DNA of 64,000 nucleotides from Strigamia acuminata (Eukaryota; Arthropoda; Chilopoda; Geophilomorpha; Linotaeniidae): positions 3,724,186 through 3,788,185 of the forward strand of contig OX442317.1 of assembly GCA_949358305.1 (NCBI GenBank), in the 5' to 3' direction. The notes under the pieces were generated by a model. The model was not told the DNA's origin. It did no database searches and saw nothing but the letters and a program-made list of their open reading frames with translations. This document shows, in pieces, positions 354 to 18,900 of the stretch; within the stretch, counting starts at the first letter, position 1; the number at the start of each line of letters is the position of its first letter. Both the position numbers and the translations under genes were made by a program.

Positions 354-3300
354 ATAATGGTGATGCATTGCAATCTCCGGAGTTCTCGACTGAGCCTCCT
401 TTCCGCGTACAATTCTCGAATAGTACGGGAATTAAAATCCCATGCAGTGCAAACACCCCGATGAATATTTCTTGGATATTGATTGACGGAACCCCAGTTT
501 CCAATGTGAATAGACTGAGAAACGTCTCGAGTGATGGAACTTTGGTGTTCCTACCATTCGAAGCCAAAGATTACCGACAAGACATGCACGCGGTCACCTA
601 CAAATGCATTGCATCCAACGCAGCTGCAACAATAATCAGCCGAGAAGTTCATGTCCAAGCCGGTAATAAATAAATACATAAATAAATAAATAAATAAATA
701 AACAAATAAACAAACAAACAAACAAACAAACAAACAAATAAATAAATAAACAAATAAATAAATAAATAATTTTATTTTTAATTTTAATTTTTTTTTTTAT
801 TTTTTTTTTATTTTTTTTTTTATTTTTATTTTAATGTACTGGATTTTATTTCAGTCATGGATCAGCCGTTTGGGCCCCATGTGTACGACGCTTTTGCGAC
901 TAAGGGCAGTACTGCAGCCCTCAAGTGCGTAATATCGGGCACAGTTAGCAAATATGTGATTGTTGACACTTGGATTAAGGACAACCAGCAGGAAATTAAA
1001 ACTTCTTTCTTCGACGGTATTGAGATATTACTTCGGCGATTTCACGGCTATTTCCGGATTTCTGCGCTTAGATTACAACGTTTCATTTGCAGATAAAAAA
1101 TACACGGTGACAAATGCCGGCGATTTGTTGATATCCAATGTTGATGGCGCAGATGCGGGTCGAAGTTATCGATGCATAGCAAAACACCGTCTTACCGGCG
1201 AAGTTAAGACCACCGCCACTGCAGGAAAGCTTTTCGTCACCGGTACGAACGGTTAACAAAAAATAAAAATTTAATTCCAAAATTTAAAACATTTCACGTT
1301 ATCTGTAGAATCGCAAGGAAACGTCCCGTCCAAGATTTTGGATACTGAAAAAACTATTTCGGCGACTGTGAGTGGTCAAGCGGTGCTGCCCTGTGTAGGC
1401 CAAGGCCATCCATCACCAATCATCGAGTAAAACTGCAAAACACAATCGAAAATAACAAAAACAAAAAATTTTCTTGCATTTTTTTCTTAGATGGTTTAAA
1501 AAAAGTGATGATGGGAAATTGATCCCAATATCAACGGGAGATAACATGAAAACAACTTCGTTGGCACTTCTTATTCGAAACGTACAAGATGGCGATTCAG
1601 GAGTGTACGTATGTGTCGCTGAAAATGCTGCTGGAACAGCCAGAAAGGAATTGACGTTGACTGTCCAAAGTGAGTTATTTATTTTGTTTTTGTTCATACA
1701 TTTTCGACCATTTTCTTAGTCGTTTTAAATGTTTAGAACCTTTGGAAATCGCTGTAAACACTCAAGAATTACAACTGGAATCAAGTGCAAGTCAAAGTTT
1801 AGTTTGCGACGTAACAGGTGCTGTCGATTTTGCCATTTCCTGGTACAGAAATGGCGATTTAATGCCGGAAAACAATGGCATGAAGACGTTGGATTTGGAC
1901 CAAAGTGGTATTTATCAGTGCTTTGCAAAATCCGAAGATGAAATGGTCCATGCGACTGCCCAAGTCACTTCTGGAGGTATAAACAATCAAAATTCAAAAT
2001 GACGCCAAAATGACGTCACATTTTCAAATTCATTGCAGAAAATAAACCGAAAATAACCAAGAAATTTTACGGAAAGATTTTGCATCCTGGAGAGAGTGTG
2101 AGTCTGGAATGCAAGGCCGCGTCGAATCCAGTTGCAACAATAACCTGGTACTTGGACGACCAGAAATTATCAACAACAGACGCAATAAAAATCAATGAAA
2201 AAATGGAAAATTCTGAAATCTCTCTGAGTGTATTAACATTGAATCAATTGACTGTGGAAAGCGGGGGCACGTACAGTTGTGTAGCATCAAACAATGCCGG
2301 AAGTGACACTTACAGTGCACGAATTAACGTTTACGGTATAAGTGTCGCCATTCTACATTAGTTACAAGTTTTAACTGATAATTGCATTATAATTTCGCAG
2401 GCAAATTAGGTATGCGAGCGATGTCGCATAAAACTGTGGTGGCTGGAGACAATTTTGTTATAACGTGCCCCTTTTATGGTTACCCCATAACCAGGATTGA
2501 ATGGCAAAAAGGTGCGTATCAATTACCGTATTTTTCCGATTAAGAGTAGCCCTCGAATTGTAGCCGCCCTCAAATAGTAGCTGCGGCTAAAAAAAAAATT
2601 ACCGTATTTTTGCGTAGGGTATTGTTGATAAAACACGGTAGTTGTATTCGATTTATTTGCTAATTTGTTGGGTTTTGCTTAGATTCACAAGAATTACCGA
2701 TAATGTTTCATCAAAAAGTATTTCCAAATGGCACTTTAATCGTGAGCAATGTAAAGAAAGGACTGGACGATGGAAAGTACACATGTATTGTGTCAAACAT
2801 CCAAAGCGAGAGAGCAGTTGGGACTGTTGAAATGGTCGTAATGAGTGAGTACAATACCAATATTTATTAATAATTATTCAAATGACGAAGTCAATCCTAG
2901 GACGAGAAAAAAGATAACTGCGTTTTCATGTCATGGATAAATAAAAAATTAGTACAGTCGAACCTCGTTATAATGAATCGCAACGGACAAGAGAAATCGG
3001 CTCATTATAACGAAAATTAGTTACAACAAACGAGCTAAAAAAATTCAATTTCATCATTTAAAAAATCGTTAATTATTCACGTACAGTGTGATTTGTGTAC
3101 GAATGGAAGTTTTACTTTTGCAAAAGTCATGTTTCAAATGTTTAGATGTATGTGTATTTACTTTGTAATGTTAAACATACAAAAACAGAAACACAGATAC
3201 CTAAAACACACGAAACCACTTTTTTCATGCAGCAATTATTTTTCAAAATAAAATGTTTAGTTTTATTAATTTAAAAATCAATTAATAATGTTCAACTTGT

Positions 3301-6300
3301 TTGCCCAAAAATTGCTTTCCGGTTAGCAGCCTAAATAAGGACATCGATTTTGAGTAACGTCATCAAAATTCTAATGGCGAATCGTCTAAGGGCGAATTTA
3401 CAAAATTCGCCATTGGAAAGCTATTTTGACGTTTCCAATGGCGAATCTAGGAAAATTCGCCATTAGAAACGTAATTTTGAAATTCGCCATTGGAAACGTT
3501 GTTTGCCAACGTTTGCGTTTGCGTTTCCAATGGCGAATCTGGGTTCATTGAAATTCGCAATTGAAAACGTTATTGCGTTTCCAATGGCGAATCTGTAGGC
3601 GTGTCATCTAGCGCGACTGCGACATGAATCTACCCCGACTTTGGAACTTGTATTTTGGGTATTTCTTCTTCTTCCAATTCGTAAGAATGGCTAACAAGGG
3701 GGGGCTGCACCCCCCTTGATCCCCCGCAAACCTAACCTTACTAGTTTTTTGATGCAAAACCATTTTTTTGAGACGGCTTGTCGCTGTCGTGGTAAATAAT
3801 GTCGCGCTAGATGTGCGCCCCTGTGGCTAATTTCTTCCATTTCGCCATTAGAAATGTAAATAGACCTTTCTAACAACGAATTGGTTTAATGTTTACCAAT
3901 TTGCCGTTAGAAAGGTCCAAATACGTTCCCAATGGCGAATTGGGAGAAATTTGCCATTGAGACTGCTTTTGGACAAAAGAAAGTAGAAATTCGCAATTCG
4001 TCCAAATGGCCAGATTCGCCGTTGGAACGGCACCCCGAATAATTCAATGTGTTAAAATTTGTTACATCAAAAATATTTTACATGGTGTTCTATGGCTGGC
4101 CAACCAAGTCATTTTTAACAATTCGTTACCGGTATATCAAAAATTCGTTATAAAGCAATTTGTAATAACGAAGTTTGACTGTAGTACCATACATTGCATT
4201 GAAAATTTGTCAAACACTTCTATCACTTTTGTTTTCAATGGAAGTGCAAACGATGCTGTATTCACTGTTTTTTCCAGTTGCACCAAAAATTATGCCATTT
4301 TCATTCCAAGAAGACTTGTTGCGAGAAGGCATGAGAGCGAGACTTCAATGTGTTGTGAGTGAAGGAGACTCACCAATCACGATTCAATGGCTTAAAGACA
4401 ATGCTGTAATTCCAAATGAATTAGACATTAAAATACAACAGATCGATGAATTTTCAAGCATCCTTAACATAGGACAAGTAACTCCCAAACATAATGGCAA
4501 CTACACTTGCAAAGCTAAAAATGCAGCAATAACTGTGGAACATTCAGCCGTATTAAATGTCAATGGTAATGGTTTTCTTATCTTGTTTTTTGCCTTGCAG
4601 TTCCTCCAAAGATCATTCCCTTTGCCTTTGTGGATGATCAATTCTACAAAGGAATGCGTGCCCATATCACATGTGCTGTGAGCCAAGGAGATCCGCCGTT
4701 GACCTTTCAATGGTTCAAAGACGATCGCCCGATCCCAACTTCTTTGCAAGATGTGGCAACGCGCCAATATGACCAGTACACCAGTTCTCTTAGTATTGAG
4801 AGCGTGTCTTCCGGCCACACGGGAAATTACACCTGTGTCGTATCAAATCGGGCGATGACAGTCAGCCACACGGCGCAACTTCTGGTTCACGGTAAATAAT
4901 CAATCCATTGATTTAATCCATTCGGGGGTTTCTTTTCCAGTTGCGCCCAGGATTATTCCCTTCTCGTTTCAAGACAAATCTGTGGTGGAAGGCAGACAAG
5001 CGAGGGTTATGTGTGGGCTAATTGAGGGAGATGCTCCTGTCACTTTTACCTGGTTGAAAAATGGAATGCCAATAAAGCAAAACGATATCGAAGTTTCTCG
5101 AGTTGTTGATAACTACTCGATCCTCTCCATCCACAGTGTCGCTCGTGGCCACACTGGAAACTACACGTGTGTGGCTACTAACCGCGCTACCAGTTCACAA
5201 TTCAGTGCCACCTTAATAGTAAATGGTAATTACTAATGAAACTATGTTTCAATTGTTTTCAGCTGCCCCAAAGATCATTCCATTCTCCTTCCACGATGGT
5301 CAATTATTCGAGGGAGTTTTAGTGAAGGTTACGTGCGTAGTCTATCAGGGAGACCTCCCAATTACCATAACATGGCTGAAAGATAACCAACCATTATCCA
5401 ACGTGGAGGGTGTTAATGTCCGACAAGTTGATCAATTTTCCAGCATGCTAACCATAGAGAAAGTGCAACAAATTCACAGTGGCAACTACACTTGCACAGC
5501 GACAAACTCTGCAGCTTCTGCCAGCTCGACGGCAATCCTTGTTGTCAATGGTACGACAATCAAGTGATTAGTATTTTCTTTTCTTGTATTTTGCAGTCCC
5601 TCCAAAAATTGTTCCATTTACTTTCCAAGATGGGCATTTACTCGAGGGCATGTTAGTTCGTGTGTCTTGTGTAGTCAGCCGAGGAGACTTGCCATTGAAC
5701 ATATCCTGGCTCAAAGACAATAAAATAGCTTCTCAAGAATCTTCTATTAGCGTGCATAACTTAGACGATTACTCCAGTGTCTTGTCAATTGACCCAGTGA
5801 CGAAAAAACATGATGGCAATTACACATGTGTTGCTAAAAACATGGCTGGAACGGACACATTTGTTGCATCAATAACTGTTAATGGTAATTAGATTAAACC
5901 GGGCATTATGAGCGCATCTGCTAATTAAAACCTTTTATTACGTTAAAACAATCAAAATTTTAAACAAAATTAAAAAAATTAAAAAATTAATAATTAAACA
6001 CCAACTTTGTAGGAACTTTAAAAAAAATTTTTTCCCTCAAAAGTATACACTCAGATTTATTACAAATAGAAATATTTTCCTTGTAGAATTACCAAAATGG
6101 GTTGTAAAACCTAACAACACTAAAATCTCAGTTGGAAGTTCAGCTCTAATGCCCTGCATTACGACTGGATTCCCAAAACCAAAAAACACATGGTATAAAG
6201 TCAAAGGTCAGTTAAGATTCCATTTAGTGAAAAGCTGAAACCATGTTTAAACTGCTAAATCTTCTTAGGTTCCAATCCCCGAGGAGAAACAGACGTGGTT

Positions 6301-15900: not shown

Positions 15901-18900
15901 CTTGGGTTTTTAAATGAAATGTGTAGATATATTAATGAAAATTTTCTTTTAGACATGGAAGTCTTGCCAATTATGTTTCATCAAACCGTATATAAAGATG
16001 GCCGTTTGATTGTAAGCAATGTGAAAAAAGGGTTAGACGATGGAAAATATTCTTGCATTGTGTCCAATATACAAGGAGAAACAGCAGTTGGATCAGTTGA
16101 CATGGTGGTCATGAGTGAGTACAATAAATGCCAATATACGCTATTGCATAAAAAACTAGGTCATTTTTTCTTGTGAATTAACAACGGCAAATAGAATTGC
16201 TTGGAATCATACATATATATTTTTGTGTTTATTTTTAATTTTAATTTAATTTTAATTTCTCTCGAAATGACTGCATTTCGATTTTATACGCTCGTACCTT
16301 TTCAGTTGCACCAAAAATTATGCCATTTTCATTTCAAGAAGACTTACTGCGAGAAGGCATGAGAGCTAGACTACAATGCGTTGTGAGTGAGGGCGACTCA
16401 CCCATCACAATTCAATGGCTCAAAGATAATGCTAAAATACCTGCAGAATTAAATATAAAAATTCAGCAATTAGACGAATTTTCAAGTATCCTCAATATAG
16501 GACATATAACTCCCAAACATAATGGCAACTACACTTGTAAAGCTAAAAATGCGGCCGTAACCGTGGAACATTCAGCCGTATTAAATGTCAATGGTAATGG
16601 TTTTCTTATCTCGTCTTTTGTCTTGCAGTTCCTCCAAAGATTATTCCTTTTGCCTTTGTGGATGATCAATTCTACAAAGGAATGCGTGCCCATATCACTT
16701 GCGCTGTGAGCCAAGGAGATCCGCCGTTGACCTTTCAATGGTTCAAAGACGATCGCCCGATCCCCGCGTCGTCAACTGACGTGGTAACGCAGCAATACGA
16801 CAAATATGCAAACTCGTTAAGTATTGAGAGTGTGTCTTCCATCCATTCGGGAAACTACACCTGCGTCGTATCAAATCGGGCGGTCACAGTCAGCCACACG
16901 GCGCAACTTCTTGTTCACGGTAAATAATCCATTCATTGATTTAATCCATTCGGGGGTTTCTTTTCCAGTTGCGCCCAGGATTATTCCCTTCTCGTTCCAA
17001 GACAAATCTGTGGTAGAAGGCAGACAAGCGAGGGTTATATGTGGGCTAATTGAAGGAGATGCTCCTGTCACTTTTACTTGGTTGAAAGATGGAATAGCAA
17101 TAAAGCAGAGCGATGCCGAAGTTTCTCGAGTTGTTGATAACTACTCAATCCTCTCCATCCACAGTGTTACTCGTGGCCACACTGGAAACTACACTTGTGT
17201 GGCTACAAACGGCGCTACCAGTTCTGAATACACTGCCACCTTAATAGTTAATGGTAATTGCTAATGAAACCGTTTCAATTGTTTTCAGCTGCCCCAAAGA
17301 TCATTCCATTCTCTTTCCATGATGGTCATTTGTTCGAAGGAGTTTTAGCAAGAGTTTCGTGCGTAGTCTATCAAGGAGATCTTCCAATTGCCATAACATG
17401 GCTGAAAGATAACCAAGTGTTATCCAGTCTCAAGGGCTTTAATGTACGACAAGTTGATCAATTTTCCAGTACGCTAACAATAGACAAAGTGCAACAAATT
17501 CACAGTGGCAACTACACTTGCACAGCGACAAACTCCGCAGCTTCTGCCAGCTCGACGGCAATCCTTGTTGTCAATGGTACGACAATCAAGTGATTTTTCT
17601 TATTTGTTCATTTTGCAGTCCCTCCAAAAATTGTACCATTCGCATTCCAAGATGGGCATTTACTCGAGGGCACTTTAGTTCGATTGTCTTGTGTAGTCAG
17701 CCGTGGAGACCTTCCATTGAATATAACTTGGCTCAAAGACAATACACTTGCTTCCCAACAACCTTCTGTTAGCGTGCATAATTTAGACGACTACTCCAGT
17801 GTCCTGTCAATTGACCCAGTGACTAAGAAACATGATGGCAATTACAAATGTGTTGCTAAAAACATGGCTGGAACTGACACTTTCGTTGCATCAATAACTG
17901 TTAATGGTAAATTATTAAATTGAATTGAATTGGGCATTGTGATAGTATGTGTTAAATAATTTTAACGGTGAAACAATTAACATTTTTAAAATAAGTAAAC
18001 AAATTCCATAAATATAAAAATAAATAAATATAAAAAAGCAACTTTGTAGGAACTTTAAACATTGTGTAGACTATACTTCTTCCCAAGAAGTATACACTCA
18101 GATTAATTACAAATGGAAATATCTTCATTGCAGAATTACCAAAATGGGTTGCAAAGCCCAATAACACAAAAATTCCAATTGGGAGTCCAGCTATGATGTC
18201 TTGTTTGACCACAGGATTCCCTAAACCAACAACAACTTGGTATATAGTGAAAGGTTGGTACTTGGTATTACTGTACGACCATTCAGATGGTGTTAGTTTG
18301 CTACACTGCGCTCCAATTGTCTCATTTTAGGATCGGATGCTCAAGGAGCAAAAAACATTGTTCAAAATGGAAATGGTTATCAGCTCGTGGAAAACGGCTC
18401 GCTCAAAATTGATCACGTCAATCTACAACACGCGGGCTATTACTTCTGCTTATCCAACAACTCAATTGGAAGCATCAGTGCGATGGCTCTCCTCTCAATA
18501 AGTTGTGAGTAAAACTTCCCTATCTTTTATTTAAATCGTGCATTTATCTATTTCTTCCTCTCCAGCAGTTCCACCCCAGATGCACAAAAAATTCCAAAAC
18601 AACACAGTTCGTAAAAACGACGCCGTCCTCTTTAAATGTGTTGCATATGGCGACCAACCGATGACATTCACTTGGTACGCAAACGGACATCCAATCGCTC
18701 AACCCAACGAAATGACTACGTAAAGAAAATCCCAAAAATCCAAAAATCTTAAAAATTTACAATTTAACCAAAATTTACTCAGGTACTTAATTAAACAATC
18801 CAACGATACCGGAAGCGAAACCTCCGAATTTGCCATCAACAAAGCAGACAGGAAAGACTCGACAACCTTTACCTGCAGTGTGGAAAACTCCTATGGGATG

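Follow-up and report, generated by a model that had tools for sequence, protein, structure and literature searches.

Inter-variant introns below the ordinary size floor in a five-exon Ig7 array of a Strigamia acuminata Dscam gene: neighbouring variants probably barred from joining, with candidate elements for a second layer

How one exon is chosen among many is a long-standing question in Dscam research. The closest described system is the congeneric centipede Strigamia maritima, for which the relevant text of PMC4244043 gives 40 Dscam genes with an Ig7 exon duplicated two to five times and with Ig2 and Ig3 unduplicated. From the transcripts of this species the same text concludes that many of the duplicated Ig7 exons might be mutually exclusive, and a review, in its passage on S. 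maritima, states that mutual exclusion of Ig7 occurs in at least one gene (PMC5465998). Both credit Brites et al. 2013 for the S. maritima Ig7 duplications, and neither mentions intron lengths or a mechanism in the relevant text. A sequence-only reading of the S. acuminata DNA treated here had suspected that Ig7 variation of this kind was already described, and for Ig7 arrays and their probable mutual exclusion in S. maritima this is indeed the case (PMC4244043, relevant text). Our literature search on myriapod Dscam splicing and steric rules, which covered few subscription papers, returned no treatment of intron size in centipede Dscam. The array described below shares genus, domain and variant positions with the S. 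maritima arrays; relative to these, what looks new is the positional rule, together with the sub-floor introns and the candidate elements.

The window, i.e. the whole 64,000-nt stretch of S. acuminata DNA that was analysed, contains two five-exon Ig7 arrays (Table 1). For the first, the sequence-only reading had given five Ig7 exons at 4278..5884 separated by introns of 35, 49, 37 and 46 nt, and our analysis reproduced these coordinates and lengths exactly. All five exons are preceded by AG and followed by GT, are of phase 1-1 and stay in frame, and the introns between them are GT-AG. A simple gene finder returned, in this order, paired exons for Ig6, the five Ig7 exons, paired exons for Ig8 and for Ig9, fibronectin domains and a transmembrane exon; the domains flanking the array were named by reading its output. 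Ig7 is here a single exon between Ig6 and Ig8, as in canonical Dscam, and the Ig6-Ig7(v5)-Ig8 segment aligns lengthwise to residues 530-808 of Drosophila Dscam1 (3dmk; E 9.1e-93). The tandem exons are of equal phase and near-equal length (285-291 nt) and are orthologous to those of S. maritima, whose database model P0005 matches the five one to one at 83-88%. A scan against NCBIfam gave no family, as expected for an animal protein. The introns on either side of the array (Ig6-v1 and v5-Ig8) generally exceed the other introns of Dscam in length, v5-Ig8 measuring 86-325 nt in 17 predictions, whereas the majority of constitutive introns are close to the minimum. Between window positions 3380 and 4030 the Ig6-v1 intron holds, as judged by eye, several short copies of a motif like TTTCCAATGGCGAAT in both directions, which may fold into hairpins.

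Table 1. Positions of the Ig7 arrays, their introns and the candidate pairing elements in the window.
Feature	Position	Strand	Remarks
Ig7 variant exon v1	4278..4565	+	288 nt, phase 1-1
Inter-variant intron v1-v2	4566..4600	+	35 nt
Ig7 variant exon v2	4601..4891	+	291 nt
Inter-variant intron v2-v3	4892..4940	+	49 nt; weakest link, 2 nt below the 51-nt floor
Ig7 variant exon v3	4941..5225	+	285 nt
Inter-variant intron v3-v4	5226..5262	+	37 nt; branch-point-like ACTAAT, A 10 nt from donor
Ig7 variant exon v4	5263..5550	+	288 nt
Inter-variant intron v4-v5	5551..5596	+	46 nt
Ig7 variant exon v5	5597..5884	+	288 nt
Intron Ig6 to v1	2845..4277	+	about 1433 nt; Ig6 exon end (2844) taken from the reading frame
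Intron v5 to Ig8	5885..6086	+	202 nt
Second five-exon Ig7 array	16306..17906	+	introns 35, 49, 35 and 42 nt
Conserved intronic element AACTTTGTAGGAACTT	6003..6018	+	kept in 12/15 window-type arrays
Second copy of the conserved element, 3' of the second array	18040..18055	+	about 0.01 chance matches expected in the window
Acceptor and start of exon v2	4598..4612	+	complement of the element at 6003-6018

We consider it most likely, with a probability of roughly 0.57, that this five-variant Ig7 array of a canonical Dscam is mutually exclusive, and that it is so by two layers, a steric one and a second factor. In the first layer no more than 35-49 nt (27-49 nt in sister arrays), less than a floor of 51 nt, separate the donor of one variant from the acceptor of the next, with the branch point in between; such a donor and the next acceptor would not be usable together, so that adjacent variants would stay unjoined. 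In the second layer some other factor would block joins between non-adjacent variants, probably RNA pairing or a repressor acting via the flanking or spacer introns. Judged from the genomic sequence, the claim that neighbouring variants are sterically barred from joining each other is well supported, and the packed introns would probably explain part, although not all, of the use of one copy at a time.

The size floor was derived from two sets of control introns. The constitutive Dscam introns, 200 predictions with 182 distinct sequences, were accepted if their exon ends matched the window's gene, and the gene finder was free to call introns down to 20 nt; the set includes locus L018, and the window's two genes were substituted for L020 and L021. 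These introns measure 51-1170 nt, 152 of the 200 falling at 51-79 nt and 169 at 51-117 nt, and none is shorter than 51 nt. The second set comes from the neighbouring genes of the window, which we take, by reading, to be YTH-domain-like, HERC1-like and furin-like. After exclusion of introns beside nine sub-50-nt predictions or flanked by exons of less than 90 nt, 46 predicted introns were left, with a minimum of 53 nt and none below it. When introns shorter than 51 nt were forbidden, the nine sub-50-nt predictions lost 0-4.3 log-odds units; the losses of the two Ig7 arrays in the window were 34.5 and 28.5 units. Because the controls start at 51 and 53 nt and the score losses contrast in this way, the inter-variant introns belong to a length class avoided by ordinary introns. 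The sequence-only reading had set the floor at 53 nt; its statement that the short Ig7 introns lie beneath the floor holds, but the value does not. Set against minima of 51 nt (n=200) and 53 nt (n=46), the introns of 35, 37 and 46 nt are below the size range of ordinary introns and the 49-nt intron just so, v2-v3 introns in general (48-49 nt) being no more than 2-3 nt beneath the floor.

The branch-point motif was dropped as a sharp criterion since constitutive introns and those of 48-49 nt overlap: the donor-to-branch-point distance is 24 nt in the v2-v3 intron of the window and 15-77 nt in strong-motif constitutive introns. In the v3-v4 intron of the window-type arrays the best motif is CTAAT, whose A stands 10 nt from the donor; in some introns of 27-29 nt (e.g. 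L030, L031) the best motif overlaps the donor; both motifs are weak and carry little weight. Any usable branch point in an intron of 27-49 nt necessarily lies near the donor. Counting against the steric rule, human introns of 43 and 49 nt are described as spliced in the passage concerned of PMC4463651.

The same genome contains at least 55 Ig7-bearing places, of which 40 stretches were read; 36 of the 40 hold two or more Ig7 exons. Ig7 exons were found with a profile made from the window's five exons, and L001-L008 stand outside the counts. Exons outside the window-type reference arrays were assigned to whichever of its five positions they matched best, except that the third exon of L036 was assigned to v4 by position although its best match is v1 (98 vs 95 bits); the first exons of L042 and L048 were near ties. 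The spacing counts exclude v4-v5 of L009 (19 nt, v4 end miscalled), v3-v4 of L014 (donor not found) and L018. Introns between neighbouring types (v1-v2, v2-v3, v3-v4, v4-v5) measure 27-49 nt in 81 of 89 cases and 54-472 nt in the other eight, so the size rule is not universal. Where an intermediate variant is missing, none of 18 introns is 49 nt or shorter, and in 14 of 14 sister arrays with v4 directly after v2 the spacer measures 131-1479 nt, lengths that are easily spliceable. Only three of 107 inter-variant introns have a length of 50-130 nt, where the constitutive introns of the same genes are concentrated. The paralogues retain the order v1-v5, and their Ig7 exons share 47-73% of their residues with the best window-type match, and since order and spacing are common to such diverged paralogues, the spacing must be old and has been kept. 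The paralogues are not independent of each other, the window-type arrays being recent copies that are mostly 91-95% alike in v1. A search for remnants of exon v3 in 13 of the v2-v4 spacers gave no convincing match (best E 0.043).

Some copies of the array may be decaying, as exon v4 has a frame break near its end in L009 and about three quarters through in L014. Furthermore, L017 (C5:3690300-3700200) and L018 (C5:3701600-3711500) are neighbouring Dscam genes that agree in their Ig7 spacings and, as far as printed, in their flanks; every Ig7 protein of L018 is matched at 100% by one from the reference arrays, and the two represent a very recent tandem duplication.

The size rule forbids four of the ten possible two-variant joins and permits six, as the intron from 7.1 to 7.3 would measure 375 nt and all other non-adjacent pairs are at least 371 nt apart. 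These six remaining joins call for a second layer, unless two variants are in fact included together. All 148 Ig7 exons measured are multiples of three, so every combination stays in frame and frame shift or decay cannot enforce exclusion; decay-enforced exclusion was ruled out on these grounds. Incompatibility of U2 and U12 introns is likewise not supported, the pooled Ig7 donor profile being GTAA-like and not U12-like.

The sequence-only reading had proposed that short introns by themselves leave room for only one variant between Ig6 and Ig8. For neighbours steric exclusion by short introns stands, given the sub-floor lengths and a spacing kept across diverged paralogues; as a complete rule it fails, with six of the ten pairs remaining and the v2-v4 spacers of the sister arrays far above the floor. 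We therefore regard the view that short introns suffice for single-variant use as quite unlikely, even though all four introns of the window's array are below 51 nt and this spacing is kept in the window-type arrays. Besides the six joins that remain possible at spacings of at least 371 nt, and the v2-v4 spacers of 131-1479 nt in every one of the 14 sister arrays, the published rule itself argues against it: according to the introduction of PMC6071210, exclusion by a short intron is limited to clusters of two exons, and the present cluster has five.

If nothing else acts, the geometry would instead lead to a steric rule for neighbours only, combined with real double inclusion, i.e. proteins with non-adjacent Ig7 domains such as v1+v3 or v2+v4. 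The frame is kept in every combination (148/148), and several Ig7 domains do occur in S. maritima database models. Among the matches listed (120 of 617), 12 of 14 S. maritima database proteins string two to five Ig7 domains in series. These look like automatic models, because they join neighbours too; should any of them rest on RNA, it would count against strict exclusion. In addition, the S. maritima transcripts are reported, in the relevant text, as pointing to mutual exclusion (PMC4244043), and we consider double inclusion unlikely. A search for S. maritima cDNA fragments in the protein collection gave five matches, of which three are S. maritima entries; none carries the name of a cDNA.

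An even simpler reading, the constitutive inclusion of all five Ig7 exons in series, can draw on S. maritima model P0005 with its five consecutive Ig7 domains. It would require the splicing of four introns each shorter than any of 246 control introns (200 + 46), it conflicts with the reading of the S. maritima transcripts given in the relevant text of PMC4244043, and it is in our view highly improbable. As a separate observation, the Dscam-like models P0019, P0021, P0022, P0025, P0030, P0032 and P0049 of the millipede Chamberlinius hualienensis each carry a row of four or five Ig7-like domains, so that the multiplication of Ig7 may go far back in myriapods.

Under the favoured two-layer reading a further factor should be sought in the introns, and two candidate elements were found there. 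The first lies downstream of the array. The intron following v5 is mostly divergent among the window-type arrays except for a block, AACTTTGTAGGAGCTTCA; 12 of 15 arrays, two of the 15 (L017 and L018) being copies of each other, retain at least 15 of its 18 bases. The element is absent from L009 and L014 and reduced to a recognisable core in L016. In the set without L009, L014 and L018, 11-mers of the element core recur with one mismatch in 12 of 12 arrays, and no other 11-mer of four reference loci, in the downstream or the upstream intron, was found in ten or more of the 12; for L012 and L024 the upstream scan used the last 600 nt (Ig6 end not found). For 11 of 12 arrays the predicted pairing of the element with the acceptor and start of v2 has an energy between -13.2 and -17.9 kcal/mol, and for L024 the value is -31.9 kcal/mol. 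Over six arrays, none of 60 permuted elements paired as well at an exon start as the element does at that of v2, and two of 60 did so at any position. Pairing with all five variants was not better than in permutations (27 of 60 as low, six arrays), and a docking site common to all five is not supported by these tests. A pairing scan of the whole flanks in eight arrays did not place the start of v2 among the best sites; its best mean energies were at offset 45 of v1 and v3, with either flank or close by, which looks like an effect of base composition. If the downstream element acts, its pairing with the v2 acceptor would enclose v2-v5 in a loop and draw the v1 donor closer to Ig8, which would favour a v1-Ig8 join.

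The second candidate is found in sister arrays on contig C4 that lack v3. Here the v2-v4 spacer holds the sequence TTYAGGATTCTGGAGAATT in seven of 14 arrays (L036-L040, L046, L047), and the spacer of L041 has 13 of its 19 bases with no pairing at that place. The element is antisense to coding sequence inside exon v1, at offset 168-193. The core of the pairing comprises 18 positions; four loci have 17 of them paired, two loci 16 and L037 14, and a single central mismatch is constant in all seven. The predicted duplex amounts to -27 to -35 kcal/mol in six of the seven loci and to -13.5 kcal/mol in L037. In a permutation test with five of the seven, leaving out L037 (weak) and L040 (near L039), the mean was -22.9 kcal/mol and none of 60 permutations was as low; in five loci, tested against all four exons of its arrays, the element did no better than chance order (11 of 60 permutations as low). 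At one position of the duplex both A-U and G-C occur, the pair being lost in L047; L046 has lost a different pair, and L037 three pairs. A general inverted-repeat search recovered the pair of spacer and v1 at the same place in five loci, and the sole other recurrent inverted pair of exon and flank occurred in two loci with an E of 3. Within 700 nt of the flanks of window-type arrays no match to the spacer element above 13 of 19 bases was seen.

The duplex of spacer and exon v1 may be a splicing duplex or an RNA-editing duplex. For the arrays lacking v3, in part, the spacer element is a candidate for the second layer. One could then think of a lock in which sub-floor introns bar neighbours and, where the chain of short introns is interrupted (7/14 v2-v4 spacers), the coding exon v1 itself serves as selector; we put this forward as a doubtful idea rather than as a conclusion. 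If it were true, tandem duplication could generate arrays that need little regulation by introns.

The two elements also bear on the proposal of the sequence-only reading of a physical rule simpler than docking/selector pairing. A replacement of RNA pairing by such a rule is not borne out, with the downstream element kept in 12 of 15 arrays and a spacer element antisense to exon v1 in seven of 14. Going to the other extreme, one could suppose a classical docking-selector competition for all variants, in which the short introns are no more than compact spacing, as in beetle Dscam1 exon 6. That exon has short introns and selectors that lie partly in exons, as the relevant part of PMC8042237 describes, and the downstream element together with the strong exon-spacer duplex, seen in six of the seven sister loci with the spacer element, could be read in the same sense. 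Against this, neither element pairs commonly with all variants, a selector at every variant was not found, no 11-mer is common to ten of 12 upstream introns, and the scan of the whole flanks gave no common site. Such a competition is thus hardly probable, and the two-layer reading stays our preferred one.

Our results also point to a simple evolutionary route, by which a tandem exon duplication could be mutually exclusive from birth. In the S. acuminata genome one array exists in many natural versions, some with sub-floor spacing and others lacking it, so that junction counts in RNA reads could show how much is due to physical exclusion and how much to RNA pairing.

Among known systems outside the centipedes, Dscam1 exon 6 of Coleoptera concerns another domain and many more variants than the centipede Ig7 array. 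More than 45% of its inter-variant introns are under 50 bp according to the relevant part of PMC8042237, where RNA pairing is also doubted for Dscam exons 4 and 9. The docking site of the beetle exon lies upstream of the cluster, whereas the centipede candidates are located downstream of the array or in a spacer, and the search for a common selector was negative. What the centipede array shares with OGDH exons 4a and 4b and with human exon clusters is a donor placed too close to the branch point of the exon that follows: the relevant OGDH text (PMC7969005) cites about 50 nt as the steric limit for the distance from donor to branch point, and the corresponding passage of PMC5740500 uses a donor-branch point distance below 50 for 57 human clusters. 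OGDH is an exon pair whose branch points are 25-41 nt away from the donor but at a long distance from the acceptor (PMC7969005, same text). The centipede array differs from it in being a chain of five exons in which the whole intron is under the size floor. Finally, Drosophila Dscam exon 17 is said to be a pair of transmembrane exons, for which Yue et al. 2013, to go by the title, reportedly describe steric hindrance combined with RNA secondary structures. Although it is not an Ig7 array, exon 17 would by that title be the same hybrid of physical exclusion and RNA structure as is proposed here for the centipede array.
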